Positions 22,699-31,316 of a stretch of 62,908 nucleotides of DNA are shown here, one piece after another; the stretch's first letter is position 1, and every line of letters starts with the position of its first letter. Position numbers and translations under genes: made by a program. Below the pieces are notes generated by a model, which was not told the origin of the DNA, searched no databases, and was given only the letters and a program-made list of their open reading frames with translations. Source of the stretch: Caldifarciminota bacterium (GTDB lineage Bacteria; Hydrothermota; UBA3072); the NCBI GenBank assembly GCA_016930175.1, contig JAFGHJ010000021.1, positions 1 through 62,908 of the forward strand, written 5' to 3'.

Positions 22699-23002
22699 TT
22701 TCAATTTTAAATAAGCAAGGGCTAGCCGTTCTGAAGGACGTCGCGGAGTCCGAAGCGGGCACGGACTTAAACTTCAAAAGTGAGTAAGGAGTACTATTCA
22801 GGAAAATATCCCGGAGCTCGAACGGGCATGGTTTTTCGATTTCGAAGAAATCGAAAAGAGTGAGAGCTAAAGAGCAATTCTCTCGCTGGGAGAATTGACT
22901 CTGTTTTTCTCGAATAGTACTCCTTACGAATAAAACCGCGGGGGAAATTGACCGCGTTCCGGAGGAACGGTTAGCCCGACCATTTTATTCGATTAAACTG
23001 AA
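22699..23002 (+). ncRNA. Nested structured RNA (or palindromic element), two homologous units one inside the other
   Basis: An outer stem pairs GGGCTAGCCGTTC (22719-22731) with GAACGGTTAGCCC (22965-22977), and weaker pairing extends it to about 22699 and 23002. Inside lies a perfect 16-bp stem, GTAAGGAGTACTATTC (22784-22799) with 22912-22927. Each stem is followed by the same motif: GGAGTCCGAAGCGGGCACGG at 22745 and GGAGCTCGAACGGGCATGG at 22813. Each closing strand is preceded by GGGRGAAATTGAC-like sequence (22888-22900; about 22940-22952). The inner unit also has an 11-bp hairpin (22833-22857) and an 8-bp one (22875-22897). No open frame of note. Strand is uncertain; plus is shown because the downstream gene is plus. 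No known RNA family recognised. Confidence 0.6.
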
Positions 23003-30479: not shown

Positions 30480-30908
30480 TCAAATTATTTCCCATTCTTC
30501 TATGTCTCCTTCAACTACCTTGAACAAAGGATGAGGTTCGAAATTTGTTTTCTTTTTTAACTCTTTATATCTTACGATGTCTCGCATTTTTAGTTTTTTG
30601 AGCAAATGATTTTTTTCATAATTTAATTGTCCGCTCTTTACATTCAATTTAAAAGGTTTGAAGTTCCATTTGATTTTGCCTTTGTTGAAATTATACCCTC
30701 TTTTAACCGATTCCTGATAGACGGTTGCCAGATATTGATTGATACTGTCAGATGGGTTCCTGGCTTTCTTGAACCGTTCAAGCTGAGGGTGATTTTTGTA
30801 TCCTTTTGTCTTTCCTTCAAGAACTTTTTTTGCCAGAAGAGTCTCTCTCCAGAGGGCGAGTAGCCCCTGGTTGTCCAGATACTTCGGATGCAGAGACCAG
30901 ATTCTCAT
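30480..30908 (-). CDS. Pyrimidine-dimer DNA glycosylase family protein
   Basis: The 142-aa product begins MRIWSLHPKYLDNQGLLALW and RETLLAKKVLEGKTKGYKNH, followed by PQLERF, the signature of the Pyr_excise (endonuclease V-like) family that excises UV-induced dimers; bacterial members are mostly uncharacterised. It ends a four-gene minus-strand cluster and starts 3 nt after the YjbQ stop. Confidence 0.85.
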   Translation of the reverse strand: MRIWSLHPKYLDNQGLLALWRETLLAKKVLEGKTKGYKNHPQLERFKKARNPSDSINQYLATVYQESVKRGYNFNKGKIKWNFKPFKLNVKSGQLNYEKNHLLKKLKMRDIVRYKELKKKTNFEPHPLFKVVEGDIEEWEII

Positions 30909-30911
30909 TTT

Positions 30912-31316
30912 TTACGCTTTTGAAACCGTTACCAGTATGTTTCTGCTGTTTCTTGGTCCGTCGAATTCGCAGAAAAAAATATTCTGCCATGTTGAGAGCC
31001 CTAATTTACCTTCGACTATAGGAATAGTTTCGCTTGGTCCGACAATACCGGCTTTTAAATGTGAATCTGCGTTTTCATCCTGGACATCATGTTTCCAGAT
31101 ACCTTGAGGGATTAATTTTCTTAATAAGTCAACGACATCCTGCTGAACACTTTCATCCCAGTTCTCCTGAATCATTATAGCAGAGGTTGCCCCTTGAGCG
31201 TAAACGTTTACAAACCCGGATTTTACCTTAGATTCATTAACGCACTCTGCCACCTGTTTGGTAATGTCGTATAATGCTTCTCTCCTATCTGTCGAAATTG
31301 TAATAACCTTCTGCAT
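30912..31316 (-). CDS. YjbQ/UPF0047 family protein
   Basis: The 134-aa product has GFVNVYAQGATSAIMIQEN, DSHLKAGIVGPSETIPI and LSTWQNIFFCEFDGPR, the conserved core of UPF0047. Family members have been linked to a side thiamin-phosphate synthase activity; the cellular role is unsettled. RBS is AAGGAAAAAGAG, weak. Confidence 0.9.
   Translation of the reverse strand: MQKVITISTDRREALYDITKQVAECVNESKVKSGFVNVYAQGATSAIMIQENWDESVQQDVVDLLRKLIPQGIWKHDVQDENADSHLKAGIVGPSETIPIVEGKLGLSTWQNIFFCEFDGPRNSRNILVTVSKA

Follow-up and report, generated by a model that had tools for sequence, protein, structure and literature searches.

What kind of element builds one hairpin inside another? The window analysed here, a 62,908-nt stretch of DNA from a Caldifarciminota bacterium, carries such an arrangement, which a first-pass annotation had read from the letters alone as a structured RNA unit nested within a homologous unit, as if one copy had inserted into another. 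Both stems lie where they had been placed. On the plus strand, GGGCTAGCCGTTC (22719–22731) pairs with GAACGGTTAGCCC (22965–22977) to form an outer stem of 13 bp with one G-U, and GTAAGGAGTACTATTC (22784–22799) pairs with GAATAGTACTCCTTAC (22912–22927) to form a perfect inner stem of 16 bp that extends to 23 nt at 91%. The internal motifs described for the two units are indeed common to both (CGGAGTCCGAAGCGGGCACGG versus CGGAGCTCGAACGGGCATGG and GGGGGAAATTGAC versus GGGAGAATTGAC); the looser likeness of the outer flanks (TTCAA...TAAG and CGAWTAAAAC) is also present, and the argument does not need it. When folded, as the annotation had proposed, the segment reaches -120.3 kcal/mol (z = -6.95), and none of 100 shuffled sequences is equally stable.

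A complete unit sits within a disrupted one

The inner unit is complete. It matches covariance model R1 over positions 22779–22929 (142.2 bits, E 1.9e-33), a score that is partly by construction since this unit is one of the ten R1 rows. Along the plus strand it comprises the P1 left arm (22784–22799), the P2 5′ strand with a conserved internal loop (CCCGGAGCTCGAACGGGCATGG, 22810–22831), the P3 hairpin (TTTTTCGATTTC-GAA-GAAATCGAAAA, 22832–22858), the P2 3′ strand region (GAGAGCTA, 22862–22869), whose NNNN/NNNN pairing covaries among copies, the P4 hairpin with a conserved bulged A at 22898 (22871–22902), and the P1 right arm (22912–22927). The outer unit, by contrast, is not intact. On the same strand it keeps its P1 left arm (22719–22731), the conserved P2a/linker motif CGCGGAGTCCGAAGCGGGCACGG (22742–22764), a leftover P4 3′ strand (GGGGGAAATTGAC, 22940–22952), and its P1 right arm (22965–22977), and it lacks the P3 hairpin, the P2 3′ strand, and the P4 5′ strand, where the inner unit sits. 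Judged by the dispersed homologues in the same genome and by the R1 score of the inner unit, the nested hairpin is far beyond chance.

An intrinsic terminator was rejected as a full account of the window copy, which is flanked by divergently oriented ORFs and whose sole terminator-like match is its own P4. Elsewhere in the window, an ORF at 30480–31316 resembles, by eye only, a pyrimidine dimer DNA glycosylase and adjoins a YjbQ-like ORF.

A four-helix core covaries across phyla

The core of the element spans ~105–120 nt. Its fold, on one strand, has four helices: P1 is the basal stem, P2 carries a 3-nt bulge and an adjoining GA/GA step, P3 is a hairpin, and P4 is a hairpin with a bulged A. 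Alignment A1, which contains the ten innermost units and is the source of R1, yields an RNAalifold consensus of 52 pairs, 31 of them with compensated double changes. In the joint alignment A4 (99 sequences from the same family and other phyla), 49 of the 52 base pairs change on both sides, 94.8% of cells are paired, and the covariation score is 0.760, compared to 0.187 (sd 0.006) when shuffled and at most 0.130 when slid. Because A4 was fitted to R1 and the P1 pairs are non-homologous between loci, the case for covariation stands on P2–P4, where nearly all pairs show double changes. At 19 unpaired positions, conservation reaches 90% or more, and the P2 flank (NNNC-GA-GC with GC-GA-GNNN) could form tandem G-A pairs. 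Homologues with covarying stems, on which the first reading depended, are present in the same genome, in the family, and in several other phyla.

The annotation had recognized no known family, and an Rfam 15 search, HEARO and retron models included, matched nothing. Credible matches, judged at the gathering score, were absent over the element from the window, L018, L003, L006, L043, L044, and L049, and likewise from L150, L173, L146, L137, and L119.

Some copies depart from this plan. A short variant of ~100–109 nt, which lacks P3 and the outer P2 and bears the mini-hairpin CTCGGAGGCCGAG, occurs at L077, L078, L079, L081, L084, L091, and L075 and suggests that the element can do without the P2/P3 arm. 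Another palindrome module, approximately CCCATGGAATAG...CTATTCCATGGG, lies in differing element loops (P2, P4, and between P2 and P4) at L006/L026, L012/L023, L003/L029, L045, L061, L082, and L090, and is a further hairpin landing in hairpin loops.

One defined strand folds

Among the non-Watson-Crick cells of A4, G-U outnumbers A-C by 191 to 59, and G-U exceeds A-C in 73 elements, with the opposite in 10. The ratio of G-U to A-C is 120:31 in the Stahlbacteria family and 176:47 outside it. One defined strand is therefore under selection to fold. Transcription-strand mutation bias was ruled out as the source of the G-U excess because the excess appears in all four gene-orientation classes. The structured-RNA claim of the annotation thus stands as regards a covarying folded unit, but RNA is not proven, because strand-specific folding of single-stranded DNA leaves the same signature. 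In some copies, the P4 loop is swapped for UUCG-type tetraloops, which are especially stable as RNA; these replacements lean toward RNA.

Relative to co-directional flanking genes, the folded strand is antisense in 47 cases and sense in 21 (p = 0.002; duplicates removed, mechanical ORFs), and this mostly antisense placement argues against a simple 3′-UTR role. In Patescibacteria and other hosts, the gene 3′ end found within 30 nt of a copy end belongs to the other strand in 20 cases and to the sense strand in 5.

Copies are dispersed and patchily distributed

BLAST of the 311-nt element against its own genome detected a set of diverged copies located on other contigs, and the covariance-model search for homologues that had been suggested found 16 full-length R1 copies there (G000). 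Five genomes of the same family (G001–G005) contain 2, 9, 1, 27, and 11 R1 matches, and 34 other genomes from the order, class, and phylum contain none. Where records with matching copies are named, they are MAGs of candidate division WOR-3/Candidatus Stahlbacteria. Scanning GTDB genomes with the pattern CTCGSARNNHGARCGGGCAYGG gave at least 107 stretches, where chance alone would give ~22 if base composition is taken as uniform, and R1 confirmed at least about 85 of these matches beyond the family. Among the matches listed, confirmed hosts include Patescibacteria (Jorgensen-, Wolfe-, Lipton-, Kaiser-, Magasanik-, Azam-, and Brennerbacteria), two ‘Deltaproteobacteria’ MAGs, Actinomycetota MAGs, Saganbacteria, and others, a taxonomic range that is a minimum. 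Thirteen of 145 sampled Patescibacteria genomes are element-positive, with up to 21 copies; copy numbers are lower bounds, with first-look filters applied and some subfamily II copies missed by R1. The genomes are mostly MAGs; contamination is an unlikely explanation of copies that occur in host genes and in many independent assemblies, and single cases may err.

With one core as the query, blastn found no match in a plasmid collection or in a phage collection, and R1 confirmed neither of two viral contigs that matched the pattern. A literature search, with most subscription journals outside it, found no published description of the family, which is apparently uncatalogued. In the window’s own genome, the RNase P RNA gene (RF00010, 155.6 bits) has one copy of the element ~80 nt away (L018:1-246 and 323-480).

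Units nest within units, and near-identical cores carry unrelated arms

Copies in the window’s own genome follow a grammar in which the left half consists of an arm, CGTCTCGGAG, NNNN, GAGCGGGCAYGG, and a hairpin, and the right half consists of GGGGAAATTGACCRCG and an arm. Among these loci the halves are stacked LLRR or deeper, with LLL at the L004 contig end, three left halves in L027, and three right halves in L003 and L019. On our reading, the 17 own-genome loci include about 13 with multiple layers, mostly two or three, while L011/L033, L018/L022, L035, and L036 have a single one. Some outer units may be decayed relics rather than functional layers.

The idea of a copy within a copy is borne out both by this recurrence and by nesting caught as a difference between orthologous loci. 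Two Patescibacteria genomes, G040 and G041, show about 97% identity at the loci they have in common and contain 23 and 22 R1 matches. At L211@856, the P3 hairpin CCCAGCCAGTCCATGGACTGGCTGGG of G040 corresponds to a whole second-subfamily unit with its own P1 in the G041 ortholog. The cores at L211@2526 and L242 are 97% identical, and their self-complementary arms are unrelated. In G041, the loci L247 and L229 hold a nested composite of some 245 nt at ~98% identity; the interior is near-identical, and the arms and flanking genes differ. Compensatory drift alone was rejected as the source of arm diversity because cores that are 97–98% identical bear unrelated arms. Other orthologous gene ends in G040 and G041 display wholly different hairpins, or a left half with a replaced right half, indicating that turnover is fast. 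The G040/G041 search found no clean empty site; each orthologous site in the comparison held some other hairpin or a unit with one half replaced, so that we infer the origin of the arms. Divergent doublets, 5–13 nt apart, occur at L137, L164, and L175.

The Patescibacteria genome that holds L247 also contains, at L246, L247, and L248, a further gene-end hairpin family (GAAATATCGCCTGTCTGAATCC...TTGAGTTCGATATTTCGTGGC) with an exchangeable inner hairpin. In two close species, one gene end carries different elements (L220:5994-6136 and L233:5782-6095), apparently with different stop codons (TGA versus TAA), as if insertion had replaced the stop.

Copies inside protein genes

In-frame copies are present in genes whose products were identified with Pfam as the NAD-dependent DNA ligase LigA (L187), TsaD (L105), an AIRS/FGAR-AT protein of the PurL type (L118, in reverse orientation), a penicillin-binding transpeptidase with PASTA (L158), and a Ser/Thr kinase (L184). 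The net insert amounts to 48 residues in LigA (query 104–159 opposite 8 residues of the solved homologue 2owo) and 53 residues in TsaD (query 232–289 opposite 5 residues of the solved homologue 6nak). The outer end of the TsaD right arm encodes SDI, a conserved part of SDIAASFQ, and the left arm carries the inverted complement of that stretch; over so few codons, this hints that native sequence can serve, inverted, as the source of an arm. In LigA, the two arms both look like additions. Twintrons, which are nested introns, and self-splicing were rejected: the copies are without visible splice motifs and mostly intergenic, and the intragenic ones keep the frame open.

Transposases and terminal repeats

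Neither an autonomous copy of the element nor a dedicated transposase was found. RAYT was rejected as the mobilizer: among the Patescibacteria sampled, PF01797 occurs in 5 of the 13 genomes with the element and in 9 of the 20 without it; no elements lie near the inspected RAYT genes, and the RAYT flanked by repeats that typifies REP systems was not seen. Many cores of the Stahlbacteria family lie inside MITE-like terminal inverted repeats (TIRs) of at least four unrelated kinds. A MITE of a DDE transposon would have TIRs and a target duplication at every copy; here TIRs of several unrelated kinds occur at many Stahlbacteria copies, and the Patescibacteria copies that were read show only locus-specific arms flanking the core, with no TIR seen. 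An autonomous IS with the same TIR was also rejected, there being no evident transposase ORF, by eye, at eight inspected TIR loci. A match to a transposon end had been named as evidence against the first reading; the core itself is not such an end, but a transposon link exists through the MITE-like repeats of Stahlbacteria. In Stahlbacteria genomes, TIRs surround the same core at the L070 flanks, L033, L060, L058, L064, and others, and L070 has a possible 19–20 bp target duplication (GATTTATCAAATTTTGGTA).

Proposed origin of the nested element

We propose that the nested hairpin of the window is one copy, two layers deep, of a REP/RPE-like mobile element that is dispersed and non-autonomous, a reading to which we give an even chance. 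Comparison of the copies at the sequence level shows a core with many copies per genome and a patchy spread over several phyla, near-identical cores (the nested composite included) at different loci in unrelated self-complementary arms of 15–20 nt, and nesting through hairpin replacement, along with in-frame intragenic copies. The core would move as a folded single strand, either RNA or ssDNA, and an enzyme supplied in trans would put it into hairpin-forming or gene-3′-end sites. The distal arms would derive from the target, either because a hairpin already existed there or because insertion produced an inverted copy, and further units would take the place of P3 alone or of the stretch from P3 to the P4 5′ strand. 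Nesting would follow because any hairpin in a unit is itself an acceptable insertion site. In the Stahlbacteria family, some cores would also be carried inside MITE-like elements. Possibly, and here we are more doubtful, the family represents a new mobile class, in which a strand-specifically folded RNA/ssDNA core has its own stem built by inverted target copying and each insertion hairpin receives the next, giving Russian-doll structures in distant phyla.

A purely DNA palindrome family of the REP/MITE type, served in trans by HUH or DDE transposases, overlaps with this proposal but excludes an RNA role, with folding relevant only to a single-stranded intermediate of transposition or to a cruciform. 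Divergent doublets spaced 5–13 nt apart, like REP dimers, and the several kinds of MITE-like TIR around Stahlbacteria cores speak for it, and G-T is tolerated in DNA hairpins too. We nevertheless find it rather unlikely given the absent RAYT association, the eight TIR loci without a transposase ORF evident by eye, and the UUCG-type P4 loops that lean to RNA.

Strong covariation, conserved unpaired nucleotides, and the G-U bias would also suit a host-encoded functional RNA, whether a cis-regulatory 3′-UTR element or a small RNA, that is duplicated per genome, with nesting as a by-product of gene conversion; the 20 copies ending within 30 nt of an other-strand gene 3′ end, versus 5 sense, point the same way. 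What makes such an RNA improbable is its patchiness (0–21 copies per genome within one phylum), the copies inside coding genes, the neighbouring genes without visible common function, a folded strand mostly antisense to co-directional flanking genes (47 versus 21), and the different hairpins that close relatives hold at one site. Replication template switching or palindrome correction could make or rewrite arms and copy hairpins between loci with no dedicated mobile element, in keeping with arms that are complementary yet unrelated among copies and with unit halves replaced between close relatives. However, the spreading sequence here is one particular ~110-nt core that keeps conserved nucleotides from phylum to phylum, rather than any hairpin at all, and its patchy cross-phylum presence implies transfer, so that this account has little to recommend it as a whole.

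The element adds a large, apparently undescribed structured-repeat family to Patescibacteria and WOR-3/Stahlbacteria, lineages short of genetic tools. The element offers a natural experiment on how complementary arms originate at insertion, and the usually essential genes ligA and tsaD carry in-frame inserts of about 48–53 residues net. Should the core move in the form of RNA, this would be a small RNA-centred mobile element without a recognized enzyme.

Comparison with known systems

HEARO/omega RNAs, retrons, and group II twintrons are structured RNAs tied to mobile elements. The element resembles them in its structure and its mobile-element link, and differs in having no Rfam match and no splice-site logic; no nuclease or reverse transcriptase was noticed in association with it. 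Like GTAG/CGTC REPs and REPINs, it forms dispersed palindromes near gene 3′ ends, often as divergent doublets, with G-T tolerated (PMC3733652, PMC3116915), and CGTC REPs have likewise been reported without a dedicated transposase (PMC3733652). REPs, however, are simple hairpins of 20–40 bp, those of the CGTC type having an 8–9 bp stem starting with AT and a CCA tail (PMC3733652), whereas the element folds into a branched structure of 105–190 nt, has variable arms, and holds copies nested in one another; its four-helix fold has only a partial CGTC-like tetramer before P2.

Mutual insertion has been reported for the pneumococcal BOX, RUP, and SPRITE repeats, which, like the element, are modular structured repeats that insert into each other; concentric layering of paired left and right halves around a shared conserved core is not described for them in the review passages considered (PMC10969869). 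The same review describes the Rickettsia palindromic elements (RPE), which the element resembles in being palindromic, about 100–190 nt long, multi-copy, and intergenic as well as in frame within unrelated protein genes (PMC10969869), in-frame insertion into protein-coding genes being found here too. Compared with RPE by description only, the element differs in its hosts, in its four-helix core that covaries across phyla, and in its self-nesting.
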